From a virus, in IMG/VR virus record IMGVR_UViG_3300030117_004770, positions 1-32,601 of that record: a stretch of DNA of 32,601 bases; one strand, 5' to 3'. Shown here one piece after another: positions 5,363 to 30,702 of this stretch. The notes under the pieces are model-generated. The model did not search any database. It worked only from the letters and a program-made list of their open reading frames with translations, and was not told the origin of the DNA. Position 1 is the first letter of the stretch, and each line of letters starts with the position of its first letter. Position numbers and translations under genes: made by a program.

Positions 5363-6048
5363 TGAGACTTCTTACTGTAAACAATCAAAAGATAAACAAA
5401 AGTAAAGAGTATGGGTGGATGACCTTTGGTCTCCACCTTGCACCCTATACCTTGTCTGGTAGAAACGTATGCCCTTATGCAAGCAAAGGATGTGCTGAAG
5501 CATGTCTCAACACAGCAGGTAGAGGGCATATGAATTCAGTACAAGAAGCAAGAATACGTAAAACTAAAATGTTTTATGAAGGAAAAGCTAACTTCTTACA
5601 CTTCTTAAACAAAGACATCTATGCAGGTAAACGTGCAGCAGAAAGAGCTAACATGAAACCATGCTTCAGACTCAACTTAACCAGTGATATATCATGGGAG
5701 AAGTATGGGATAATACAAAGCAATCCTGATGTACAGTTCTACGACTACACTAAAAACATCAAAAGAATTGATAAGTTCTTAAACAAAAAGCTACCAAAGA
5801 ACTATCACCTAACTTATTCAAGATCAGAAGACACAGACATTGATACAATCAGAAACATAATCAAACATAAAGGTAATGTTGCTGTATGCTTCAATGATAA
5901 TAGTAACCTATCTAAATGGGAAGGTATGAAAGTAACAAATGGCGACACACATGACCTAAGATTCATAGATCCTCATAGCCATATCATATCACTCAAAGCA
6001 AAAGGTAAAGCCACAAAAGATCAAACAGGCTTCACCATAAATCTATAA
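5362..6048 (+). CDS. GP88 family phage protein
   Basis: This 228-residue protein matches the GP88 family first named from mycobacteriophage gene product 88. The diagnostic part is the N-terminal third: a WMTFGLHLAP-like stretch, then NVCPYASKGCAEACL with Cys37, Cys44 and Cys48, followed by TAGRG and a basic helix (EARIRKTKMFYEG). Further cysteines occur in KPCFRLN and VAVCFND. The clustered cysteines suggest a metal or Fe-S site, but the family has no established biochemical function that I know of. The start overlaps the upstream stop (TAATG). The gene is the last in this arm and is followed five bases later by a strong terminator. Confidence 0.85.
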   Translation: MRLLTVNNQKINKSKEYGWMTFGLHLAPYTLSGRNVCPYASKGCAEACLNTAGRGHMNSVQEARIRKTKMFYEGKANFLHFLNKDIYAGKRAAERANMKPCFRLNLTSDISWEKYGIIQSNPDVQFYDYTKNIKRIDKFLNKKLPKNYHLTYSRSEDTDIDTIRNIIKHKGNVAVCFNDNSNLSKWEGMKVTNGDTHDLRFIDPHSHIISLKAKGKATKDQTGFTINL

Positions 6049-6052
6049 CACT

Positions 6053-6084
6053 AAGTACCAGTTGTAACATACTGGTACTTTTTT
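6053..6084 (+). terminator. rho-independent terminator after the GP88 gene
   Basis: A perfect 9-bp stem, AAGTACCAG (6053-6061) with CTGGTACTT (6072-6080), has a 10-nt loop and a following T-run to 6084. It closes the left-arm transcript. Confidence 0.93.
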
Positions 6085-6106
6085 ACAAAAAAGAGCGAAC
6101 CTTAAA

Positions 6107-6150
6107 GTCAGACATCAGAGAGATTTTTGTCAGACTTCAGAGAGACTTGC
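6107..6150. repeat. 22-bp tandem repeat, two copies
   Basis: Copies at 6107-6128 and 6129-6150 share GTCAGAC(A/T)TCAGAGAGA, then diverge slightly at their ends. Two adjacent copies at one helical-phase interval (about two turns) suit a repressor or initiator binding site. Confidence 0.8.
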
Positions 6151-6172
6151 ACCCTGTACCCTGACTCATGAA

Positions 6173-6240
6173 TAGGGAGATAGTTTTTAGTAAGCACAGA
6201 TCTGTGGAAAAAGGGGGTGCACGGACTAGAAAATAATTGA
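6173..6240. repeat. 68-bp imperfect direct repeat, copy A
   Basis: The shared blocks are TAGGGAGATAGTTTTTAG (6173-6190), TGGAAAAA, GTGCAC (6217-6222) and GAAAATAATTGA (6229-6240). Copy B lies about 157 bp to the right. Copy A is not followed by a recognisable promoter. Confidence 0.85.
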
Positions 6241-6284
6241 ATAAAAGGGTAGGTAAGTTTTTTATTTTTAGTGCACCCCTTTTT
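6208..6284. repeat. inverted repeat with GTGCAC core
   Basis: AAAAAGGGGGTGCAC (6208-6222) pairs with GTGCACCCCTTTTT (6271-6284) with one bulged G. A second inverted pair, ATGGGGGT (6288-6295) with ACCCCCCAT (6313-6321), follows. The arms overlap the direct repeats, so alternative foldings compete. Confidence 0.7.
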
Positions 6285-6330
6285 AAATGGGGGTAGGAGT
6301 TAAGAGTTTCGTCACCCCCCATTATAAAAT

Positions 6331-6396
6331 TAGGGAGATAGTTTTTAGTGAGCATGGGTCATGGAAAAAAGGTGTGCACTAATTGAAAATAATTGA
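6331..6396. repeat. 68-bp imperfect direct repeat, copy B, abutting the promoter
   Basis: The same block order as copy A appears at 6331-6348, 6362, 6374-6379 and 6385-6396. It ends 11 bases before the -35 box at 6407, where an activator or operator would sit. Confidence 0.85.
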
Positions 6397-6406
6397 AGAA
6401 AATATC

Positions 6407-6435
6407 TTGACTCAATATTCAATCGATGCTATAAT
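6407..6435 (+). promoter_or_regulatory. near-consensus sigma70-type promoter
   Basis: TTGACT (6407-6412) and a perfect TATAAT (6430-6435) are separated by exactly 17 bases. Transcription would start near 6442, giving a leader of about 100 nt before the first gene at 6545. The match to host housekeeping sigma70 suggests an early promoter, and it speaks against a Bacteroidetes-type -33/-7 promoter. Confidence 0.88.
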
Positions 6436-6466
6436 GAATTCCGTTACTTGAACAGTAATAAACACA

Positions 6467-6520
6467 GCTCCCTCAGATAGTTTCTTTGTTCATTTTTCCA
6501 TATTGACTATCTGAGGGGGC
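6467..6520 (+). promoter_or_regulatory. 15-bp stem-loop in the leader RNA
   Basis: GCTCCCTCAGATAGT (6467-6481) pairs with ACTATCTGAGGGGGC (6506-6520) through 15 positions with one G-T wobble, around a 24-nt pyrimidine-rich loop. No T-run follows directly, so it is not a classical terminator. It sits about 25 bases after the predicted transcription start and about 25 before the first start codon. It may be an RNA stabiliser, a protein-binding site or part of an attenuator. Confidence 0.8.
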
Positions 6521-6544
6521 ATTAACTCTAAATAAAATATAAAT

Positions 6545-8561: not shown

Positions 8562-8778
8562 ACGCTACATACAAACGGATGCAGATAGTAGATATGATTG
8601 GATTGCGATGTTGGAGAAACAAAACTCATACGAGATTGTTGCAAGCATCAAAGATTCAAGAGTCCTTCTGTATAGAAACAAAGACGAACAAAAGAGCATA
8701 GATACTTTCAAGTATCTCGCCCATAAGCATGGGGCGTTATCAGCTACTATTCCTTTCAGAAGTTTTGCGATGGCTTAA
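8551..8778 (+). CDS. small hypothetical protein at the convergent junction
   Basis: This 75-residue protein is unrecognised. The frame extends back to 8464 inside the preceding gene, but the ATG at 8551 overlaps that gene's stop and gives a sensible product. It looks like a compact alpha/beta protein (SYEIVASIKDSRVLLYRNKDE, then FKYLAHKHGALSATIPF). Its TAA stop (8776-8778) overlaps the TAA of the giant leftward gene on the other strand through the shared TTAA at 8775-8778, with no terminator between them. Confidence 0.68.
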   Translation: MSVKRYIQTDADSRYDWIAMLEKQNSYEIVASIKDSRVLLYRNKDEQKSIDTFKYLAHKHGALSATIPFRSFAMA

Positions 8779-11700
8779 TCTTCTCTGTTGTGATAGTAGA
8801 ATCTAGGTAAGTTTTTAAAGTAAGCATCAAGCAAGCGTTCCCTTCTGAGGAACTCTTTGTTCTCGGTAAGTCTGTACTTATCTCTTAGTTTCTTTTTCAA
8901 ACCTTTGTGAGTTTCTCTTGGGGTTTCTGTTTTGCCCTGTAATAAAAACCCATATCTTCTTTTTCCAAACTGTGATCCATATACTATTTTTTTAACATCT
9001 TGATCTGATAGTCCACCAAGAGTCGCTAAGTTTTTGAGTGTATGGGCTACCTCTTTATCTAGCCTGACCCTATGATCTATCTCATCGATCACGAGAGCTT
9101 TCATTTCAGCATCAGTGATTGGGTTATCGCTCAGAACTTTGTTTTTCCTTAACGATATGTTCTGTGTTTCTCTTCTTACATCAAATAGATATCTCCTCAT
9201 GTTGTTTGAGATATCTACTGTGTATGGTTTAGCAGGATAAAATTCTTTTGCTATACGCTCAAAGATTTCTTCGACAGGGTTTGTGCCGATCATCTTAGCG
9301 ACTTCCCGACCAGCTTTTATTGTCCTTGGTTCCAAAGCTTCTTTAAGTAGGAATGAAGCCCCTTTGATAAATACATCTTCAGCTTCGTCTCTCTCCTCCC
9401 ATATCTTTTTATTTGTTTGAGGATCTCTGTTTGCTTTTAAACTTAACAATCCCCCTGCAAAGATTTGGTCATCTAAGTATTCGTTAAATATCAAACCTTC
9501 TATAAAACTCATTGCCATAGATGCTGGGCTTTCCCCTCTGAATCCTTTCTCAACTGAACGTAGTACAGGATCAGCTAACATAGCGTATGGGTTTACGTAT
9601 GTTAGATCCAAAGTTTTTAACTCACCATCTTCTCTGTACATTATGAAAGTATGCCCCCTCAAGTACTCGACTAAAGTTCTTCTAAGGGCAGCTTCTTCTT
9701 CATCATCTACATCAGTTATCATACGAGCTATCAACGGACCAACTGCGGATAGACCAACTGTTGTTCCGAGGAAACCTGAAAGCCTCAAAGCACCCCTCCT
9801 TTTTATAGTGGGGCTTTGATCCTTCATCTCTTCTACAGCGAGGCGTATTGTATTTATAGATATCCTGACTATCTCTCCCTTGAATCGAATGAACGGAGCG
9901 AACATAACTCCAAGAGAGGACTTAGTCCATCCTCTTACTAAAGGTGAAGATCTACTATATGATTGAGCAGTCCTTAAAACTTTATCAGCAGCTTCCCTTT
10001 TGATTTCATAATCTGTCATTGTAGCATACTTACCTTCGCCTCTCTCCTTTGCTTTATTTAAAACAGACAATTCATTTTCGTAGTAAGATATCTTGTAGAA
10101 AGTATCAACAACAGCAGATAGTTCTTTAAGAGAAGTATATAGTTTGTTAAGTGGTGATCCTATTTTCTTTAGGTCACTTTCTTTTGTATTCTCATCAGTT
10201 AATTCATCTATCTGTTTTGTTTTCCTGTATACCTCATCCATCAATTCGTTTGGAGTAGTCTCTCCTCTGAATATTTCATCAAGCATTTTAGGTCTTATCT
10301 CGTCACCAATAATATCTAAAGCATCTAGTTCAGCATAATACTCATCTAATTTAATTTGGCTGGCTTTGAACCTTTCACCTGAGTATATACCCCTATGACG
10401 TAAGAGTTCTTTACCCATATTCTTTGTGTACCTTATAGGTGCTATCATTCCTTGAGACAAACCAAAGTAAAGTACGTTACCAAAAATGTTTCTTAGATAG
10501 AATCCTATAGAACCTAAAGTCTTAGTTGCCATTGAAAGACCTGTCAGATTAAAAGCCATCCTATTTAATTGAGTGGCGACAATCTCAGATTCATTTAAAG
10601 CTACCTTAGTACTGTCACCTAAAAGTTTTAAAGCTTCATTCAGATCTCTAGTGGCATAGTACTTCTTACCTGTAGTCACGTTTACCCAAGGGTCGAAGCG
10701 AGCATCCCCGTCTGCAAAGATTTGTTCCCAGCGGTTTACCTGCTGCCCATTGACGATTACAAACTTCTCGTCATCTGGTAGGTTTAGAAGAACATCCTCT
10801 TCAATTATCCATCCATTCTTTTCTTTCAAGCCAAAGTCTAATACGTTTTTTAAGTAGGCTTGGTGAGATGCCATAATACCAACGTGCATATATGTACGCA
10901 TGATTGCATCATAACCAGTGGCATCACCTTCTTCACCCATCAAAGCCCTCAACTGTTGTGGGATATCTTTCCTTTGTAACAGACGCTCTTTTAATATATG
11001 TGCAAAGCCCATACGCCTAGCAAGATCTTCCCCTTCTACTAGTTTCAATCCTCTGTTCTTTGTAAACAAGTTATCCTTGTTTGAGAAAGAGTTTAAGAAA
11101 GAAGCCATCATATTGTGTATGAGTGGTGGTTGATCAGAAGGAGACTTAGTTCGGTCTGCTACCAATTCTTTTTCAGCTATTTTTCTTGCGTCTTCTATTC
11201 TAGTAACAAGATTACCTTCAGCATCTGTTTCTTTATTTAAAATAATTTGCGTAGCTCTGTGGGTTTTATATTCTTCCGCAAAGAATGCAGCAGCTTCATT
11301 ACGTACTTCAGTGTACTTACTATCGTACATTACTTGATCAGCAAAACCTGCATCTGAAAATAACTTATATGATCTTGTCAGATACACTTCTAGATTTGCA
11401 TCAATGGTAGCATTTAATTGTTTTTTAATTTCTGGATCGTTAGGGAATAACTCCCCTATCTTTTTAGAGAACTCATCTGTCTTCCCACGAAGAGCAAGTA
11501 GATGCCTAACTATTTCAGATTTAGGGTTTCCGTTTTCATCATAACCACCGAGTTGTTCGATAGCATATTCTCTTCTCTGTTCAAGCAAGGCTCTTTTATT
11601 TTGATAAGCCCTATTAAAAGCTGTAGATTTCTGACTATCTAAATCCTTAATATCCTCTGTTAATCTTTTTATATTAGCCTGTAGCTCTTTGTTGTCTGGT

Positions 11701-14700
11701 TCTTGAACCCTCTGCTCATTAAGAGCTGCCAAGACTTGAGTCATTCTTTTCAATTTAGTATCGAAAAATTTATTAAGGAAGTCAGTAGTCTTTGGATCAA
11801 GTCTTAAAACTTCAGCGTCTCCTGTTATACTTCTAAATAAATCTACAGGAGCATCCCCATCTGGATATAACTTAGCAACTAGTTTGTCTAGTCTATCTTT
11901 GTAATTTTGTATTTCATTAAATACAGCATTACGAAGAGCGACTGATTGCTGGTGTAGCCTTTGCAATCTTGGGTCTGGTGACCCGACTAACGCATTCATC
12001 CAAGACATTATGCCTTTGTAAGCACCACGATACTTACCTGTTTTCATAACAGGTATTGTTAACATACCTGTTAGGTTACCATGCTTGAATATTCTATTTG
12101 TACTAACTTCTGTTGTAGTATTACCCTCTGTCTGAGATTCGGTGACTTCAATTATAGTACCAACTTCTGGGGCTATATCAGCATCTGCTTCTGAAGTTTC
12201 GGTGTGTCCTGTAAAAGCTTTCACTACCCTTAAAGGATTGTCTGGATCAAACATAGGTATAGGCTCTACTTGATAACCAGCTTTCATATCGTTGTAAGCT
12301 TGGACAACCCTGTTAACTGCCATTGACATATAAGGGTTTTCTGAATCTCTTCTCAGAGCAAAAGTTATTCTGTTTACAAATCCTTTTAAGTATCTAAGAA
12401 TTGCTGCAAAGATATTAGGGTTCTCTAAATAGAATGCTCTGTCTTGCTCTGTAGTAAATCCTTTTAAGGCACGTTGTGCGTACATACGCAATGCCTCTTT
12501 ACCCAATGTTCTTTGTTCATTAGCTACTACATCTGGATCTTCACTTGTGAGCCTTGCTCTTGCAGCTTGCTTATCTGCTTCCGTTAGGTAGTAGTTATCT
12601 ATGACACGATTAACTTCTGACTGAGGCATCTCCCCATACAAAGCAGAGATCTCTTCTGTAGTGAAGTCAGCGAAAGTGGCTGCGTGTATTATCTCTTCTA
12701 TCATTACAGAAGATGTTAATGCTTTTGCATTTCTATTTGATAAGCCATCAATTAAATTACCTAGTTCGCTAGGTTCTATCTGAACAAAACTTCCGCTCTC
12801 AGATGTAACAAAACTAAAAGGTTTTATTTCTTGTCCTGACTCTTGAGCTGCTTTCCTTTGTTCATCAGATACTAGTCTGACATCAACACCAAATAGCTGT
12901 CCTATTAAACTAAGATCTGCCAAGAGGTTTTGTAGTTTTAATAAGTCTTCCTGACTAATATCATCCAAGGATTCAAAAGCTTTTTCAGGTGACAAGCTTC
13001 TTATTTGGGATTCAGTAGTCTCATCATTAATATCGTTAAGTTTTAAACTTAACTCATGTTGATCTTTGGCAGCTTTTACAGCTTCTATTTCCGTTCTTAA
13101 ACCTTCAGCAACACCCTGAGTATCCCCTTTCTTTAGCTCGTCATTAAACTCAACCTGACGATCAAGAGAATCTAATAGCTTATTGATGTCTTTGTATTTA
13201 ACTTTTCTTGTGATGACATTACCATTCGACCAATCGGGTATATAACTATATGAAAGTTCTACATCTTTTTCTTGTTTTGTTTTAGGAACAAATTCACCTG
13301 TTTTCCCTACTCTTACATAACCATTATTTTCTACATAATCTGCAAGTGCTACTTCACCTTTACGAAGATAATTTCTATATCTTTTATTCGTGATATGTGA
13401 TAACTCATCCATGATGATGGTAGCTCCTGCTTCCATCGCATCATCTATAAGTTTGTACTTACCATCCAATTCACCATCTTTTACTGGTATGATTGCATCT
13501 TTCCGTAGGCCATTAGACGCTACAAAGACAACATCAGAAGACTTGTAGTTACCTGTATTAGCACGCCCTCTAATCTCATACATTCTACGATAGTTATCGG
13601 TTGAAGAACCCACTGCACCATCACCAATAAACTGAGTAGCTTTCCTTGTTTTAACTTGTTCTTTAGGGACGTGATGTTTAGCACTTACATTAGAGAAGGT
13701 TACTATATCTTTTGTTGTAGCTCTCTGTAGTATTTTATTTTCATATATCTCTACTAAAGGACGAAGGCTCTGGGCTTCTTGTTCATTAGCTTGTGCTACA
13801 GCTATATCAGTTGGTGCATCAATATTATCTAATTCTTCAAGTCGAGCTTTAGCTTCAGGGAAACTTAATTTTTTTGTTATTCTTTCACTAAGACCAATTT
13901 CTGGTGAGAAAAAAGTGTACGAATAAGTTATAGGTTGTCCTATCTCTGGCTCAAATATAGATTGGTCATACTCATTTATAGCTTGTTGTAATCCTTCAAT
14001 GTGTCCTAGCTTTTGTATCTTCTCTCTTGTTAAATCATTATCATTGTAGAAACCTCCATAGAACTCAAGAGTATGATCAATTTGTGCAACATCTTTACGT
14101 AGTTGTTCAAGCACCTTACTCGCTTCTTCTATTTGAATATTTTGAATATCAGAAGTTATTTCTTTAGTACCATCTACACTTGTATACGTATATTTATATC
14201 TTAGTGTACTATCTACAGGCTTAGAGGGGGTGGTTGTTTCTTGCTCTAAAGAAAAGTCTGAACCCCTTCCCCTAACTTCAGCGACTGCTTTTTCTAAAGA
14301 AGCAATACGTGCTTTAGAATCTTCTAAGTAATTTCTATCTATAAAAATATCAGAACCAAAGTTAGAACCTGAGTCATAAGCTTCTGTATCTGATGCAAGT
14401 TTTTCTTTTAACTCTTTAATTTTTGCATCAGCCTCATTTAACTTAACAGAATCTGTACTTTCTGTAGTGTTAGTCTCTGGATCGTTTTCTCCCCAAGTAT
14501 ATCTTATATTAATATTTAAAGGTTTAGAAGCTTCAGTTGTTTCTTGTTCTAAAGCAAACCCTCTTACTTCAACTACATAGTCTCTCAGTATTTGGGCATG
14601 GTTTAAATCACCCTCTTGGTGATACAAAAGTTTTTGTCCATCTAACTTACCTTGATTGATTTGATCAAGTACCCATTGCCTACGCTCTTGCTTAACCTGA

Positions 14701-17700
14701 TTAATTTTATAACTTCCACCGCCCTTCAATTTTACCGTGAAATCAACACCCCTTAACCACATTCCGTAGAACCTTAAAGTCTCGCCTAAATTTCCTGTCT
14801 TTATGGTATCACGAGTTTTAGCTTGCGGAAGATCGCTAAATGGATTTCCAAAGTGTTGTTCACCTTCTTGCCTGAGTGTGTTAATGCCTTCTCCTTTTGC
14901 TGCTGCTGCTCTAACTGCTGCTGGCCCTTTTTTATAAACAACCTCTGGTGATTTTTGTTGGTTATCTGGCGTAGTATCTCCTACATACTTCAAGGTGTAG
15001 GGGTCACGTAGTTTTTTCTCAACTAAGATATCATGGATAGCTCTTGCTTGTGAGTTAACATTTATACCAAAGTTGTTCGCACTCGTAGGTTTTTGTGCAA
15101 ACTTATCAGTAAGTATTTTACCTGAACTAGCTTCTCCAATGACTCCTAATTGTTCTTCATTATTATCAAAGTATATTTTCCATAACCCTTTATATACTTC
15201 GTAGTACCTAAATTTATCGCTCTCTGCTTTTTGACCTTTGCCTGTTCCTTTAGCAGCTTTGTAAAGATCTTCTATTGTTGCAATTCCTTTATTAGCTTTA
15301 CCATCTTTTTGTAGGAATCCTAATTTTCTTGATATGGGTATGCCTAAACTTTTTAAAAGTTCTATCGCTTGTTTATATTTTATAGTTGCATTCTTAGGGG
15401 AGAATGTTTTACCAACAGAGGTTCCTGCTAATGAAACCTCAAAGGTATCTCCTTGTCCTTCAGGAACTTCTTTAGCATACCCCACTTGTTTTAAAACTGG
15501 TTTAGTTTTAAGTGGAATAGTTTCTAGATAGGCATCTATACTTTGTCTTATTGCCCTTATTTGGGACTCTAAAATCTCTACACTGTCATCTCTTACAGAA
15601 GGATCAAAATTCTTTATCTGTTCTTCTAATTCTTTTATACGACTGTTAGCATCAACTAGTCGGACAGAACGTGTTGAAAGCTCATTATCGTAGTTTCTAT
15701 AGCTATATGTTATATATACATCACTAGCTCTGAGTGGTTCCTTTGTATCTTCTTTAGACTCTACCTTCTTTTCGTTCTTAACTGCGAATTCCTTTTTAAA
15801 TCTATCATAGTTGCTCCTCGCCTCTTGGTCGTACGCAATGTTTTCAATTAAACCTCCCTCATCCACTTGTTCTGAGCGTTTATCTTTAATTAATTTATAA
15901 AACCCTTCTTCAAACACCATATTAGGTGGTATATAACCTGCGTCTAAAAACATTTCAGCCATCTGCTCTCCCGTCCAACCACTCAAACCGCCTTCAGTCC
16001 TCTGGGCTACTAAGAATTCTTTATCTGGATTAGCACGAGCTGTCTCATATAGCTTACTAATATTTTCAGTTATCTGTGTTTCCGATAATGATCTTTTAGC
16101 TGTTGGTGTTTTCTTAGTTGGGAGCGCATAAGAAGTACCCTCCGTCCCCTCCTGAAGTCCTTCAGCTTGTCCCTTTACATTCCACTTACCTTTTGTACCA
16201 TCTTCCTGCTTATTATAATTACTGTCTGATCTAAGTTTCCTAAATTCATCTACACTTTTCCCCTTACCGAAAGTTGCAAACCCTGCTGCCCCCGCTCCGT
16301 GAAACCCTTGTAGGTTGGAACCAAATACAAACACTTGATTTTCGTCTAATGAGGTTATTTCACCCTTGTATGTTTTTGAACGGGGTTCAGTTGTTGGGTC
16401 ATATTCCTGATAGCCATATTGTACATACCGCCCTCTCTTTTTAACTATTTCGTTATAGGCTTCTATAATTATAGCATCCGTATTTTGAGCAAGTACTTCA
16501 TCTCTTGTTTCAGGATCGTAAGCTCCTTGATCCTCAAACCTATTTATAATCTTTTCAATTTCGGCTGCCATCGCACGTAGCTCTTCCTCCGTAAAATCCA
16601 TTACACCTTGGTTATCCAATATGGGAGATTCTATTAGTTTCCTAAAACCTTGTTCACCACCGTATCGATCAAAGTCTGGATCTCCAAGCGTTAGTATTTC
16701 GTCCCCTTTGTCATATTCAGGCATCTTCCAGTTTAATTGTTCATCATCAGTTTCTGGTAAGCCTTCATTAATTTTACTAAGAGCAGACTTTATATGTTGC
16801 TTGTTTATTTCAGGAGGATCTTCCTCATACAGAGTAGGTATGCCTAAATGATACCCGATTGTTTCTCTTAGCTCCCTATAATTTATATCCAAAACCTCAT
16901 CAAGTTCTCCTCTTATATCTCCTATCGATTCATTAAGCTCTTCCGATGCCTTTCTTAAAAGTGGACTATAAAAATAATTACTTACGACCTCTTCGGGAAT
17001 CGCTTCATTAAACCAGTTAGATCCTTTAAAACCAAGATTTAAAAGAGGATACCATGTACCAGCTTTATTTTCATTACCTGACCTTCCTGATGCGAGATAA
17101 AAAGTAACTATGACTCCGTTTACCTTTTTGAAAACAATAGCCCGTCCAGTTAATTCAAATATAACTGATTGATTCGGACCAGAACCTTTAAACAAAAGAG
17201 AGTCTTCACTAACTTCATCAAAGCCATCTTCATTTCTAACAGCAGATAATATATCATTCATTTCCTCACCGCTTGGGAAATAAGTATCTTCTAGTATAGG
17301 CTCTCCTTCTGTATCAAACTTCTCTGTCGGGGTTTTAGCTTCGGCTTTTGGTATATTTAATTCATTAGCTTTTTGTTGAGCTTCCTCTTCAAGTTCCAAC
17401 CCATAGTTTTCAGCAATGCTCTGCTTATCAAGGTTATCCATGTCCTCTATGAGCTGTTCATTTTGGGCATCTAAATCTGCTCCTTCTGGAGCTGTTGGCA
17501 TATCAGCAGTATCTTTACGTTTCTGTAAAGAACCCCAATCAATACCAAGAGCTTTTGCTGCTTCTATGTTAGCTTCCTTTTCATAATCAATAGCTATTTC
17601 ATTAGTCAGATCAGGGTTATCATTTTCATCTTTTGGATAATTTACATTATGCCCTAATTTGATATGAGCTTTCTCATGTTCTTTGATAAACTCAATATAT

Positions 17701-20525
17701 CTTTCAACAGAACCTAAAGCTTCTTTGAATTTTGCTAAGTCAACCTCTTCAAAAACTTTTTTCTTTTGTTCCGAAGTAGGACTATCTATCTTTCCAGATA
17801 AATAAGGGAGGGGTTCTTTCGCATTAAAATCATTTGCTATATTGGTTGTATATAAAACAATTTCCGCTTCTGCTTCTGTCGTAGGCTCCCCATCAATAGA
17901 CTCAGTAGTTTTAGTTGATACTGCTGGAGTACTTCCTAACTTTCCTGAAGTATCTTTAGTGTTCTCAGTTATTTTTATTTTTGTATCTTCTGCTGCTTTT
18001 TTTCTTCTAGCTATTTCTTCAGTCGCAGCTATAGCTTGACCTATAAAAGTTTCATACTCAGTTCCCGTAACTTTAGAAGCAGGAGTTCTCAACTGCGCTA
18101 ATGTTATCTCCTCCATGACCTTCGCAGTTAAGGGAGAATTATTATCTTTTAAAAATTTTATGAGCTGTTGTTCTTCGTCTTGGCGTACCATTTCCAACTG
18201 ACCTTTTGAAAAAGCCCCTTGTTTTTCTGCAATAGAACGTACACCAGCAGCACCTTGTCCGATGATACCACCAACTAAACCTGCGTACATAGCACCAGTT
18301 ACCCTATCAATCATAGGGGTATCTTCATTTAGAGCAGCGTCTACAATGAATGAATTTACAAACTCATCTACACCTTCCTCGAAAAATTCTTGTGTACCAC
18401 TTTGAAGGAATCTCCTATACAAACCAGTAAATCTTTGGGGTACAACTTCCTTAATCCTTTTTGATAAGTACTCCCTCATTAAGTTTCCATATTGAGACTG
18501 AGCAATCTTAGTTCTCAGCATCCTTTCCAAAAGGGACTTATGTTGCTTGGCAGTAATACCTCTAAGGAAAACATCTTCAAAACCACCTGCCCCTACACTA
18601 CTGAAACCTGCTGTAATAAGACCTGTTGCAGTTCCTGCCATCATCGCTGCTCCAAAAGCGGCATCATGTTTTTCCTCATGTGTACCTTCCAAATTGCCAT
18701 ACACTGTAGCATAAGTAGCACCAGCCGACCTATTAGCAGCCGTTACAAATAGAGCAGATGTCTGAACACCACTTACTAAATAAGAAGATGCTTGTCTTTT
18801 AATAGTCTCTTTACCTTTCTTCTTTGTAACAGTTCTAGTTAGTGATCTATTGAAACCATCAATAGCTTTTTGTACGTCGGCTGCATTACTACCCTTTGTA
18901 AAAATACCAGCGTCGGTAAGTCTCTTAGCTGCTTGCTCCGTAGTTTCTCCAAACCTTTTCTTTAATACACTACCAGTTACGGTTTTAATAGCTCCTTTGG
19001 CTGTTAAGTTTACACCCTGTTTACCTGTTATATAAAGTGCGCCACCAAATCCAAATGTACCCGAACTAAGTAAAACAGTAGCTGTTATGTCAGTAACCAT
19101 AGGTGCAATCGCAGTAGATACATCCATACCTAAACCAAACTTGTCGCCAAATATTTCAGCTACAGCTCTACGGTTTTGTCTGTCCTCGTCCTGTTCAACC
19201 AAAGCATCAATAGCAGCTTGGTTTTCAAACAAAGCAGGTATTACAAACGCTAGACCAGTGAACGAATCAGCAATAGAATCACCGATTGCACCTAAACGAT
19301 TTTTAGCCCCACTATAATTTTTAGGGTCGGCTATAAATCTTTCTAGTATTTGACCATTAGATAAACCTTTTTGTTTACCATCTATCTTTGCAGTACCCCA
19401 TTTCTTCTCCACTGTAGAATCTCTAAATAATTCATCGTATTGAGGGAACTGTCTTGTGAAAAAATCTTTTCTGTAGTTTCTTAAAGAAGTCTTTTGATTT
19501 GTATTTAAATCCGTACGGAGTTCCAAAGCTGCATCAAACTTACCTCTATCAAAAATCAACTCTGAGTGTGCTATGACTGCACCATTCTTTGTTACTTTGA
19601 TGTTCTCTCCTAACTTGTTTACATCACTTATAAAATCTACTTCCCCTTTTTGGTAGGCTTCAAAAGAAGCTACCTGCTCCAGAGCATCCATGATATCTGA
19701 ATCCTGAAACCTGTTCCTTGAAACATTCTCCCCTATATCCCTGCTGCTTGAATAACCTTTAGCTAACAGAGTTCGGGCTTTAGTAATCAGGGCAGAGGGA
19801 TCAGTTTCTTCTTTGTTATTGATGAAGTAATCTTTAGCATCTTTAAGTACTTCATTATAGAGTTCCTTATCTTCCGCTTGGGAAGCAGCAGAAAACTCTG
19901 ATCTTACTTGATTATCTCTTATTGCTTTAAAAGAATTAACACCAGAGTAAATGTCTTTCATACCCCTAGCTACTTGCCACATATCACTATGTCGTATAGC
20001 TCCTCTACTCAAAGCACTAGCAACTGCTTTCTTACTATCTAAAATATTTGAATCACCTATAAGTTCATAACTTATAGATCCGTCTGCACCTTTTCTTCTT
20101 AATGAAGCAAGACTTAGTCTACCATGTTCAACTAAGTGTTGTTTCGCTTCATTAACTTCTGCTGAGAAGTCTTCTCTTTTAGCTCCATTTTCTAATGCGT
20201 TGTAATAATTATCTTTTGCTTCTTGTCCAAAGGCTTCAAACAAAAGGTTAGCATCAGTATCTACAGTTCCAGAATCTAATGCTGGTCTATACTCTGGATC
20301 TATCTGAGCTATCTCATTATTAATAAGTCCACTAATAGCTGCTTCAGCATCACTATCTAAAGCCCCACGTTCAAATTCAAACTCTCTTAGATAATTACCA
20401 TAACCAATAAGCTTATCCTTATCGTCGGTTATGTTAGATCCAATAGAGTCCCCCCATTTATAAAAAGGTAAGGGATTAGTATATGCGTCATCACCTGACG
20501 AATCAGTTATAAGTTCTCCTGTCAC
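8775..20525 (-). CDS. giant phage polyvalent protein, probable internal virion (ejection) protein
   Basis: This single 3916-residue frame takes up over a third of the window. Visible regions in order: hydrophobic Gly/Ala-rich segments near residues 420-510, 625-645 and 745-760 that may be membrane-active; a zincin-like HEKAH (950-954); a beta-rich domain with a TWYPLLNLG stretch (about 1110-1190); a macro-like domain (about 1384-1547); a DUF4326-like domain (about 1859-1987); a Rossmann-like nucleotide-binding domain (about 2272-2414); a second, degenerate zincin-like motif EEIIH (2610-2614); long helical regions; and a hydrophobic segment near 3575-3605. Five diverged strand-plus-coiled-coil repeats lie between about 1603 and 2488. 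This mosaic matches the known phage polyvalent proteins, thought to be injected with DNA and to carry counter-defence enzymes. The start is a GTG without an SD. It is the last gene of the TerL operon. Confidence 0.85.
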   Translation of the reverse strand: MTGELITDSSGDDAYTNPLPFYKWGDSIGSNITDDKDKLIGYGNYLREFEFERGALDSDAEAAISGLINNEIAQIDPEYRPALDSGTVDTDANLLFEAFGQEAKDNYYNALENGAKREDFSAEVNEAKQHLVEHGRLSLASLRRKGADGSISYELIGDSNILDSKKAVASALSRGAIRHSDMWQVARGMKDIYSGVNSFKAIRDNQVRSEFSAASQAEDKELYNEVLKDAKDYFINNKEETDPSALITKARTLLAKGYSSSRDIGENVSRNRFQDSDIMDALEQVASFEAYQKGEVDFISDVNKLGENIKVTKNGAVIAHSELIFDRGKFDAALELRTDLNTNQKTSLRNYRKDFFTRQFPQYDELFRDSTVEKKWGTAKIDGKQKGLSNGQILERFIADPKNYSGAKNRLGAIGDSIADSFTGLAFVIPALFENQAAIDALVEQDEDRQNRRAVAEIFGDKFGLGMDVSTAIAPMVTDITATVLLSSGTFGFGGALYITGKQGVNLTAKGAIKTVTGSVLKKRFGETTEQAAKRLTDAGIFTKGSNAADVQKAIDGFNRSLTRTVTKKKGKETIKRQASSYLVSGVQTSALFVTAANRSAGATYATVYGNLEGTHEEKHDAAFGAAMMAGTATGLITAGFSSVGAGGFEDVFLRGITAKQHKSLLERMLRTKIAQSQYGNLMREYLSKRIKEVVPQRFTGLYRRFLQSGTQEFFEEGVDEFVNSFIVDAALNEDTPMIDRVTGAMYAGLVGGIIGQGAAGVRSIAEKQGAFSKGQLEMVRQDEEQQLIKFLKDNNSPLTAKVMEEITLAQLRTPASKVTGTEYETFIGQAIAATEEIARRKKAAEDTKIKITENTKDTSGKLGSTPAVSTKTTESIDGEPTTEAEAEIVLYTTNIANDFNAKEPLPYLSGKIDSPTSEQKKKVFEEVDLAKFKEALGSVERYIEFIKEHEKAHIKLGHNVNYPKDENDNPDLTNEIAIDYEKEANIEAAKALGIDWGSLQKRKDTADMPTAPEGADLDAQNEQLIEDMDNLDKQSIAENYGLELEEEAQQKANELNIPKAEAKTPTEKFDTEGEPILEDTYFPSGEEMNDILSAVRNEDGFDEVSEDSLLFKGSGPNQSVIFELTGRAIVFKKVNGVIVTFYLASGRSGNENKAGTWYPLLNLGFKGSNWFNEAIPEEVVSNYFYSPLLRKASEELNESIGDIRGELDEVLDINYRELRETIGYHLGIPTLYEEDPPEINKQHIKSALSKINEGLPETDDEQLNWKMPEYDKGDEILTLGDPDFDRYGGEQGFRKLIESPILDNQGVMDFTEEELRAMAAEIEKIINRFEDQGAYDPETRDEVLAQNTDAIIIEAYNEIVKKRGRYVQYGYQEYDPTTEPRSKTYKGEITSLDENQVFVFGSNLQGFHGAGAAGFATFGKGKSVDEFRKLRSDSNYNKQEDGTKGKWNVKGQAEGLQEGTEGTSYALPTKKTPTAKRSLSETQITENISKLYETARANPDKEFLVAQRTEGGLSGWTGEQMAEMFLDAGYIPPNMVFEEGFYKLIKDKRSEQVDEGGLIENIAYDQEARSNYDRFKKEFAVKNEKKVESKEDTKEPLRASDVYITYSYRNYDNELSTRSVRLVDANSRIKELEEQIKNFDPSVRDDSVEILESQIRAIRQSIDAYLETIPLKTKPVLKQVGYAKEVPEGQGDTFEVSLAGTSVGKTFSPKNATIKYKQAIELLKSLGIPISRKLGFLQKDGKANKGIATIEDLYKAAKGTGKGQKAESDKFRYYEVYKGLWKIYFDNNEEQLGVIGEASSGKILTDKFAQKPTSANNFGINVNSQARAIHDILVEKKLRDPYTLKYVGDTTPDNQQKSPEVVYKKGPAAVRAAAAKGEGINTLRQEGEQHFGNPFSDLPQAKTRDTIKTGNLGETLRFYGMWLRGVDFTVKLKGGGSYKINQVKQERRQWVLDQINQGKLDGQKLLYHQEGDLNHAQILRDYVVEVRGFALEQETTEASKPLNINIRYTWGENDPETNTTESTDSVKLNEADAKIKELKEKLASDTEAYDSGSNFGSDIFIDRNYLEDSKARIASLEKAVAEVRGRGSDFSLEQETTTPSKPVDSTLRYKYTYTSVDGTKEITSDIQNIQIEEASKVLEQLRKDVAQIDHTLEFYGGFYNDNDLTREKIQKLGHIEGLQQAINEYDQSIFEPEIGQPITYSYTFFSPEIGLSERITKKLSFPEAKARLEELDNIDAPTDIAVAQANEQEAQSLRPLVEIYENKILQRATTKDIVTFSNVSAKHHVPKEQVKTRKATQFIGDGAVGSSTDNYRRMYEIRGRANTGNYKSSDVVFVASNGLRKDAIIPVKDGELDGKYKLIDDAMEAGATIIMDELSHITNKRYRNYLRKGEVALADYVENNGYVRVGKTGEFVPKTKQEKDVELSYSYIPDWSNGNVITRKVKYKDINKLLDSLDRQVEFNDELKKGDTQGVAEGLRTEIEAVKAAKDQHELSLKLNDINDETTESQIRSLSPEKAFESLDDISQEDLLKLQNLLADLSLIGQLFGVDVRLVSDEQRKAAQESGQEIKPFSFVTSESGSFVQIEPSELGNLIDGLSNRNAKALTSSVMIEEIIHAATFADFTTEEISALYGEMPQSEVNRVIDNYYLTEADKQAARARLTSEDPDVVANEQRTLGKEALRMYAQRALKGFTTEQDRAFYLENPNIFAAILRYLKGFVNRITFALRRDSENPYMSMAVNRVVQAYNDMKAGYQVEPIPMFDPDNPLRVVKAFTGHTETSEADADIAPEVGTIIEVTESQTEGNTTTEVSTNRIFKHGNLTGMLTIPVMKTGKYRGAYKGIMSWMNALVGSPDPRLQRLHQQSVALRNAVFNEIQNYKDRLDKLVAKLYPDGDAPVDLFRSITGDAEVLRLDPKTTDFLNKFFDTKLKRMTQVLAALNEQRVQEPDNKELQANIKRLTEDIKDLDSQKSTAFNRAYQNKRALLEQRREYAIEQLGGYDENGNPKSEIVRHLLALRGKTDEFSKKIGELFPNDPEIKKQLNATIDANLEVYLTRSYKLFSDAGFADQVMYDSKYTEVRNEAAAFFAEEYKTHRATQIILNKETDAEGNLVTRIEDARKIAEKELVADRTKSPSDQPPLIHNMMASFLNSFSNKDNLFTKNRGLKLVEGEDLARRMGFAHILKERLLQRKDIPQQLRALMGEEGDATGYDAIMRTYMHVGIMASHQAYLKNVLDFGLKEKNGWIIEEDVLLNLPDDEKFVIVNGQQVNRWEQIFADGDARFDPWVNVTTGKKYYATRDLNEALKLLGDSTKVALNESEIVATQLNRMAFNLTGLSMATKTLGSIGFYLRNIFGNVLYFGLSQGMIAPIRYTKNMGKELLRHRGIYSGERFKASQIKLDEYYAELDALDIIGDEIRPKMLDEIFRGETTPNELMDEVYRKTKQIDELTDENTKESDLKKIGSPLNKLYTSLKELSAVVDTFYKISYYENELSVLNKAKERGEGKYATMTDYEIKREAADKVLRTAQSYSRSSPLVRGWTKSSLGVMFAPFIRFKGEIVRISINTIRLAVEEMKDQSPTIKRRGALRLSGFLGTTVGLSAVGPLIARMITDVDDEEEAALRRTLVEYLRGHTFIMYREDGELKTLDLTYVNPYAMLADPVLRSVEKGFRGESPASMAMSFIEGLIFNEYLDDQIFAGGLLSLKANRDPQTNKKIWEERDEAEDVFIKGASFLLKEALEPRTIKAGREVAKMIGTNPVEEIFERIAKEFYPAKPYTVDISNNMRRYLFDVRRETQNISLRKNKVLSDNPITDAEMKALVIDEIDHRVRLDKEVAHTLKNLATLGGLSDQDVKKIVYGSQFGKRRYGFLLQGKTETPRETHKGLKKKLRDKYRLTENKEFLRRERLLDAYFKNLPRFYYHNRED
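13062..13260 (-). repeat. strand-plus-coiled-coil repeat 5
   Basis: Residues about 2422-2488: LSYSYIPDWSNGN, then TRKVKYKDINKLLDSLDRQ, then GLRTEIEAVKAAKD. It lies just after the Rossmann-like domain, so that domain sits between repeats 4 and 5. Confidence 0.65.
13290..13712 (-). other. Rossmann-like nucleotide-binding domain in the giant protein
   Basis: At residues 2272-2414 an ATQFIGDGAVGSSTDNY loop is followed by SSDVVFVASNG, a helix with KLIDDAMEAGATIIMD, and a C-terminal GEVALADYVENNGY. The alternating strands, the Gly-rich loop and the GATII(M/T)D strand resemble DprA/putative nucleotide-binding Rossmann domains of polyvalent proteins. I cannot name a specific substrate. Confidence 0.5.
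13729..13935 (-). repeat. strand-plus-coiled-coil repeat 4
   Basis: Residues about 2197-2266: ITYSYTFFSPEIG, then ITKKLSFPEAKARLEELDN, then a helix ending LRPLVEIYENKIL. It lies just before the Rossmann-like domain. Confidence 0.68.
13966..14206 (-). repeat. strand-plus-coiled-coil repeat 3
   Basis: Residues about 2107-2187: LRYKYTYTSVDG, then IQNIQIEEASKVLEQLRKD, then IEGLQQAINEYD. It is preceded by SLEQETTTPSKP, the second copy of the linker. Confidence 0.7.
14278..14518 (-). repeat. strand-plus-coiled-coil repeat 2
   Basis: Residues about 2003-2083: NINIRYTWGEND, then DSVKLNEADAKIKELKEKL, then KARIASLEKAVAEV. It has the same strand-strand-helix-helix order as repeat 1. The linker before it (ALEQETTEASKP) recurs after it. 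Confidence 0.7.
14566..14950 (-). other. DUF4326-like domain in the giant protein
   Basis: At residues 1859-1987 the order VVYKKGP, GEQHFGNPFSD (GNPF from residue 1893), YGMWLRG and a late NHAQILRDY resembles DUF4326, whose members run from a GNP(F) loop to a C-terminal HAxxL helix. The usual Cys-rich segment before the HAxxL helix is replaced by LLYHQEGDLN, so a metal or catalytic site may be lost. Confidence 0.55.
15523..15719 (-). repeat. strand-plus-coiled-coil repeat 1 of the giant protein
   Basis: Residues about 1603-1667: YITYSYRNYD, a second strand with RSVRLVDA, then a helix (RIKELEEQIKNF) and a second helix (ILESQIRAIRQSI). It is the first of five diverged copies. Confidence 0.65.
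15885..16375 (-). other. macro-like domain in the giant protein
   Basis: At residues 1384-1547 the pattern NQVFVFGSNLQGFHGAGAA is followed later by SYALPTKK and FLVAQRTEGGLSGW. This is the signature of a macro-domain-like family found in phage and mobile-element proteins: a strand, then a Gly-rich phosphate loop, then an Ala-Leu-Pro-Thr stretch. Macro-type folds bind or remove ADP-ribose derivatives. The activity of this branch is not known. Confidence 0.6.
17545..17850 (-). other. zincin-like metallopeptidase domain in the giant protein
   Basis: At residues 892-994 the sequence EHEKAHIKLGH contains an intact HExxH (His950, Glu951, His954). A Glu-rich helix follows about 30 residues later (DYEKEANIEAAKALG) that could give the third ligand. 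Zincin domains are a known component of polyvalent proteins, where they may cleave the precursor or host targets. Confidence 0.7.
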
Positions 20526-30409: not shown

Positions 30410-30610
30410 ATGAGTGATATTACTATAAACGAACAAATAAGTCACCTCGAAGGTGAGATTGAACAAGTGCAAAACATCAGAGAAGAAATTTCTTCTAAGA
30501 TAAAAGAACTTGAATCATCTGACATGAAAATGTCAGTGACGTTGGACGCTTTTGAAGCTCAGATAGAAACCTTAAAGAAGTTAGAGGCATCTCAGCCTGA
30601 ACTAATATAA
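30410..30610 (+). CDS. small coiled-coil protein
   Basis: This 66-residue protein is almost all helix with heptad Leu/Ile/Met (ISHLEGEIEQVQNIREEISSK, then ALEAQ-like DAFEAQIETLKKLE). It has no Cys, no membrane segment and no known family. It starts two bases after the stop of the candidate ssDNA-binding protein and ends just before the structured RNA upstream of the polymerase gene. It could bridge replication proteins, but that is a guess. Confidence 0.7.
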   Translation: MSDITINEQISHLEGEIEQVQNIREEISSKIKELESSDMKMSVTLDAFEAQIETLKKLEASQPELI

Positions 30611-30613
30611 ATC

Positions 30614-30693
30614 TCGTCAAGCGGTCGGAGTTCCGCAATACGAAATGGGGGAGTCCACCTGCGTGTTATAGGTTGCACGTAGGTGGGCAACTC
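30614..30693 (+). ncRNA. two-hairpin structured RNA leader of the DNA polymerase gene
   Basis: Hairpin 1: TCGT (30614-30617) with ACGA (30640-30643) and GCGG (30621-30624) with CCGC (30633-30636), separated by a symmetric 3x3 internal loop. Hairpin 2: CCACCTGCGTG (30655-30665) with CACGTAGGTGG (30676-30686), 11 pairs including one G-T wobble, extended by GAGT (30651-30654) with ACTC (30690-30693). The loop of hairpin 1 contains GAGTT (30628-30632), which can also pair with AACTC (30689-30693), so hairpin 2's base and a pseudoknot compete. It is GC-richer than its surroundings and ends nine bases before the polymerase ATG. No known RNA family was recognised. Confidence 0.65.
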
Positions 30694-30702
30694 ATCGCAA
30701 AT

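Follow-up and report, generated by a model that had tools for sequence, protein, structure and literature searches.

What is the function of the 92 nucleotides that separate the DNA polymerase gene (polA) of an uncultivated marine phage from the small reading frame in front of it? The phage is represented by a 53,250-base record, IMGVR_UViG_3300030117_004770, of which bases 1-32601 were analysed and are called the window in the following. An earlier note, made from the letters of the window, had described two hairpins in this gap together with a tail, AACTC, that could pair either with GAGT at the base of hairpin 2 or with GAGTT in the loop of hairpin 1, and had taken the arrangement for a regulatory leader or a riboswitch-like element.

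Genomic setting

The leader and its neighbours are listed in Table 1. Genes for a helicase, an exonuclease (DUF2800) and a resolvase lie upstream of the 66-aa ORF, the leader and polA, and a small ORF precedes the polA leader in most of the relatives examined. The small protein often ends in an EQLELPL-like C-terminus, e.g. in L048 and L092, which resembles sliding-clamp-binding peptides; the 66-aa version of the window ends in SQPELI. Among named phages the best matches to the polymerase are 26-28% identical and no close relative is found there, and a DNA similarity search against the same phages gave chance matches only. Relatives of the polymerase occur in genome bins of Verrucomicrobiota, Planctomycetota and Kiritimatiellota, which hints at these phyla as the host group, with the reservation that a bin can contain a phage contig by mistake. 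The polymerase gene of one relative (L338:1501-4128) is interrupted in frame by an intein-like insertion (FGPETKVLTDRGWVDI...VHNC), inside which an HNH-endonuclease-like ORF lies in another frame.

Elsewhere in the window a 3916-aa ORF (8775-20525, minus strand) matches nothing in Pfam and gives only two small matches in PHROG, both of unknown function. Between larger plus-strand ORFs, a region of about 500 nt (6049-6544) holds a 42-nt direct repeat (6173-6214 and 6331-6372; the copies are 81% alike) together with an inverted repeat at 6209-6284, and a 28-nt relative of the neighbouring sequence is found again at 5437, 7607, 8170 and 23908.

Table 1. Position and structural parts of the polA leader in the window.
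Feature	Coordinates	Strand	Basis and remarks
66-aa ORF 5' of the leader	30410..30610	+	weak phrog_5328 match
polA leader, intercistronic, 92 nt	30611..30702	+	between the 66-aa ORF and polA; position common to retrieved relatives
Hairpin 1	30614..30643	+	MFE fold; UCGU/ACGA around GCGG 30621-30624 / CCGC 30633-30636, loop UCGGAGUU
Outer helix, 5' side	30645..30652	+	MFE fold; AUGGG 30645-30649 and purine internal loop GGA 30650-30652
Hairpin 2 (P3), 13-14 bp	30653..30688	+	covariation in 16 leaders; apical loop with UAGGUU
Outer helix, 3' side	30689..30695	+	MFE fold; internal loop AA 30689-30690 and CUCAU 30691-30695; contains AACTC 30689-30693
polA, family A DNA polymerase, 587 aa	30703..32466	+	PHROG 17 E 6e-79; PF00476 E 2e-28

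Structure of the leader

The leader folds with a minimum free energy of -40.7 kcal/mol (z -5.15, with 0 shuffles equally stable), and no other 92-nt stretch of the window, on either strand, is as stable. The GC content of the gap is 53%, that of the flanking genes 39%, and only 0.18% of the 92-nt windows are equally GC-rich. The earlier note was right about the two hairpins and the GC-rich gap, and right in all of its coordinates, including GAGT at 30651-30654 and the distance of nine bases from the end of AACTC to the ATG; its view of a stable, structured RNA directly before the polymerase gene agrees with the z-score and with the compensatory changes that hairpin 2 shows in relatives. Both of the pairings it had drawn are possible on paper, with GAGTT at 30628-30632 inside the loop of hairpin 1, but the thermodynamic and comparative fold is a different one, in which hairpin 2 is enclosed by an outer helix.

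The stem of hairpin 2 is GUCCACC.../...GGUGGGC, closed by the loop UUAUAGGUUG, and together the helices comprise about 19 bp with an asymmetric internal loop, GGA/AA, whose counterpart in L049 is GGAUC/A. Hairpin 2 stops 14 nt short of the polA ATG and is followed by the tail AACTCATCGCAAAT. There is no U-run directly after the stem, and a terminator scan of the plus strand found no intrinsic terminator at the window leader. A promoter scan of the gap gave matches at chance level only. Shine-Dalgarno-like sites were found at about 6 of the 32 likely start codons in the window, and since polA, like most of the window genes, has no such site, classical masking of it by the leader is unlikely and was rejected.

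Conservation in related phages

Relatives of the polymerase were fetched from IMG/VR, and leaders were compared among polymerases that are about 60-98% identical. They fall into the sub-clades A (the window), B (L010-L012), C (L013-L016, L042, L047), D (L048, L061) and E (L049-L051), with L052, L054, L073-L077 and L097/L115 as further leaders in the same set. Between the sub-clades the architecture is kept while the primary sequence is largely replaced, and the leaders were therefore compared by structure, as sequence alignment fails between them; for the same reason the formal count for hairpin 2 does not include the E-type leaders.

In the 16 distinct leaders of sub-clades A-D, 96.4% of the cells of hairpin 2 are paired, and both sides have changed in 11 of its 14 pairs, so that the search for compensatory changes in homologous leaders, which the earlier note had proposed, came out in favour of this hairpin. 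Its covariation score was reached by 0 of 500 shuffles, slid controls were paired in only 24-53% of the cells, and RNAalifold recovers the helix unaided. On the plus strand there are 18 G-U wobble cells against a single A-C cell, which means that the selected molecule is the plus-strand RNA. Hairpin 2 is a real, evolutionarily maintained plus-strand RNA hairpin. A 17-nt motif from its tail was found in 11 IMG/VR contigs, and all 11 carry this polA leader. The exact hairpin pattern of the window was not found in IMG/VR, because its stem differs from those of the relatives by a G-U pair.

Hairpin 1 is more weakly supported than hairpin 2. Its stem is invariant within clade A, the other sub-clades have a hairpin of different sequence in its place, and the upstream hairpin of clade C shows one C-G to U-A exchange. 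The outer helix is possible, with no covariation specific to it: its own pairs (GAGGG/CUC) do not exceed cross pairs (p 0.45-0.64), as the strands are G-rich and CU-rich throughout. A G-rich, GAGGG-like 5' flank is repeated in many relatives. Across the polymerase clade of the window the z-scores of the leaders range from -3.1 to -6.1.

The two mutually exclusive pairings, which were the core of the proposed switch, are not kept in the homologues. Clade B has GAGC for GAGT and cannot pair it with ACTC, while its stem has been extended by paired changes from GUCC/GGRC to GCC/GGC, and evolution thus keeps the extended stem and not the GAGT/ACTC pairing. The other partner, GAGUU in loop 1, is invariant in clades A and B, as is the AACUC tail; C, D, L052, L073 and others lack the loop motif. 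When duplex energies of loop and tail were permuted among 17 representatives, the leaders' own combinations (-2.7 kcal/mol) were no better than crossed ones (-2.9 kcal/mol, p=0.67).

Leaders in sister clades and the R1 RNA

We placed the leaders on a polymerase tree of 71 taxa, with leader labels that were partly assigned by eye. A hairpin without a U-tract is found in 26 rows (the window clade and L097/L115), an intrinsic terminator in 24, most of them with a U-tract, and a pseudoknot RNA, here called R1, in 15, mostly followed by a hairpin. The automatic hairpin caller misjudged L073 and L074, in which the hairpin is present, and L083 has R1 without a hairpin. Leader type changes 5 times on the tree, compared with a mean of 36 after shuffling, i.e. 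it is clustered by clade, and at a polymerase identity of roughly 50% or more most members have a strong hairpin that ends within about 25 nt of the ATG. The position of the leader before polA is thus fixed, and the device in it is exchanged clade-wise for terminators. As terminators occupy the same spot in sister clades, we read the element of the window as its clade's answer to the same task, to set polA apart from the upstream genes and probably to keep it at a lower level than these. The equivalence is positional only, since the hairpin of the window has no U-tract.

R1 lies at the start of the leader in sister clades and has the form GGnAnUGCGGCGG-hairpin-CUGGUUA-n-CAUCGCC-stem-GUAACCGCAUAAAAG-stem. 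In 37 distinct sequences its three helices form an H-type pseudoknot with 96.4% of the cells paired. Cells with a double change number 99, compared with 33 in shuffles; in helix 1 the first four pairs are invariant, and helix 3 shows most of the covariation. The strict pattern occurs in at least 100 stretches in IMG/VR, with 64 distinct sequences among the matches listed, of which 27 lie directly before this polymerase family. Other listed copies precede ORFs that by eye resemble terminase, portal, SSB and MazG-like genes, some contigs hold two copies (L247, L248, L256), and the match in L189 is probably due to chance. The carriers are L177-L275 and the leaders of L082, L083, L088, L092, L094, L096, L098, L099, L105, L113, L116, L120, L132, L133 and L152. 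R1 had no match in Rfam, and a comparison of two R1 sequences with named phages gave nothing convincing. A host riboswitch was considered and rejected, since none of 388 genomes from the phylum to which one host bin belongs contains the strict pattern. R1 is a conserved, virus-borne RNA without an Rfam entry that is widespread in viruses. Kinship with the window leader was also rejected, as neither the window nor its 53-kb contig gave a match to the R1 covariance model.

Discussion

We hypothesize that the gap is a cis-acting intercistronic RNA hairpin in the polA message that limits or uncouples expression of the polymerase, perhaps with a protein bound to it, and we consider this reading about evenly balanced between right and wrong. 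In it a smaller hairpin is followed by a stable one, whose 3' foot is some 8-15 nt away from the start codon of polA. Such a leader would separate polA from the upstream genes and hold the output of polymerase down at the RNA level, through limited loading of ribosomes and/or a defined, processed and stabilised mRNA end, and a protein may recognise the hairpin by its recurrent loops and flanks. We infer the effect on polA expression, its direction and any protein partner from this picture.

One more specific explanation is an autogenous translational operator, in which the polymerase or another replication protein of the phage would bind the hairpin and block its own translation when it is not replicating, as gp43 does in T4 and RB69. 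The T4 gene 43 operator is a protein-read hairpin upstream of the polymerase start codon, with a loop that is kept while the stem varies (PMC3014915), and the leaders share the position and have apical loops that recur on variable stems. By inspection, GUGGG sits on unrelated stems in L049, L052, L073, L074, L097, L115 and the second hairpin of clade C, and a class of the UAG(G/C)UUU kind (UAGGUUUU or U(A/U)GCUUUC) is found in A, B, C and L075-L077. This recurrence of loops and flanks in the clade suggests candidate sites for protein recognition. However, the loop is not conserved clade-wide (UAGGUUUU, UAGCUUUC or GUGGG, depending on the clade), which does not support a single common binder, the family A polymerase is unrelated to gp43, and sister clades with polymerases about 60% identical have plain terminators, so we find an autogenous operator rather unlikely. 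A little less probable still is a processing or stability hairpin, in which a double-strand-specific nuclease would cut in or near the internal loop, as at an RNase III site of the T7 type, and leave a defined, hairpin-protected polA mRNA. The anatomy of an intercistronic helix with an asymmetric internal loop is compatible with this, but the helices are rather short for RNase III, and some clade members have only 13-16 bp and no outer helix.

The metabolite-sensing riboswitch or pseudoknot switch of the earlier note has in its favour that clades A and B share both GGAGUU and AACUC although their hairpin 1 sequences differ. Against it stand the permutation result, the loss of the loop in clade D, L052 and L073, and the absence of a conserved aptamer-like core across the clade; nor did Rfam covariance models, at gathering and permissive thresholds, give any match for the window leader, and a riboswitch-like element of this kind is very improbable. 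A DNA-level element, i.e. an origin or a recombination or packaging site, would fit a GC-rich inverted repeat near a replication gene, but it is hardly credible in view of the asymmetric wobbles, the constant sense orientation directly before polA, and the terminators or R1 RNA found at the same spot in sister clades.

The cis-acting intercistronic hairpin may be part of a wider pattern. In a tentative view, possible rather than probable, one family of uncultivated phages would reserve the polA leader for control at the RNA level and would have filled this site anew with devices of three unrelated kinds: in the window clade a hairpin read by a protein, elsewhere an intrinsic terminator or a pseudoknot RNA that is new and specific to viruses. 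Each of them would throttle polymerase synthesis, the one in the window through a phage protein that reads the apical loop. The leader is in any case a covariation-backed candidate for a regulatory RNA, placed in the replication operon of phages that have no close named relative (best about 28% identical). It suggests that phages control replicative polymerases at the RNA level not only in T4, where this is known, but also in an unrelated polymerase family; the study of the leader also led to R1.

Comparison with known systems

The translational operator of T4/RB69 gene 43 is among the nearest known parallels, as a hairpin some tens of nucleotides before the start of a phage DNA polymerase gene with a partly conserved loop and a variable stem. 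It is a hairpin of 16-18 bases with a UAAC-type loop that is bound by gp43, a family B polymerase, whereas the window has two hairpins, a stem of 13-14 bp, its own loop sequence and a PF00476 polymerase of family A, and no Shine-Dalgarno site for the leader to overlap.

The RNase III sites of T7 are intercistronic, irregular hairpins with an asymmetric internal loop, and the window leader shares these features; its helices are shorter, and there is no kinship in sequence. The intrinsic terminators before polA in sister clades (e.g. L078, L085, L103) are alike in place, in the length of the GC-rich stem and in the distance to the ATG, but the window clade has no U-tract and has one or two extra hairpins upstream. 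R1, too, is a structured RNA that is conserved in polA leaders of this polymerase family, with the topology of an H-type pseudoknot and a long conserved core, unlike the hairpins of the window.
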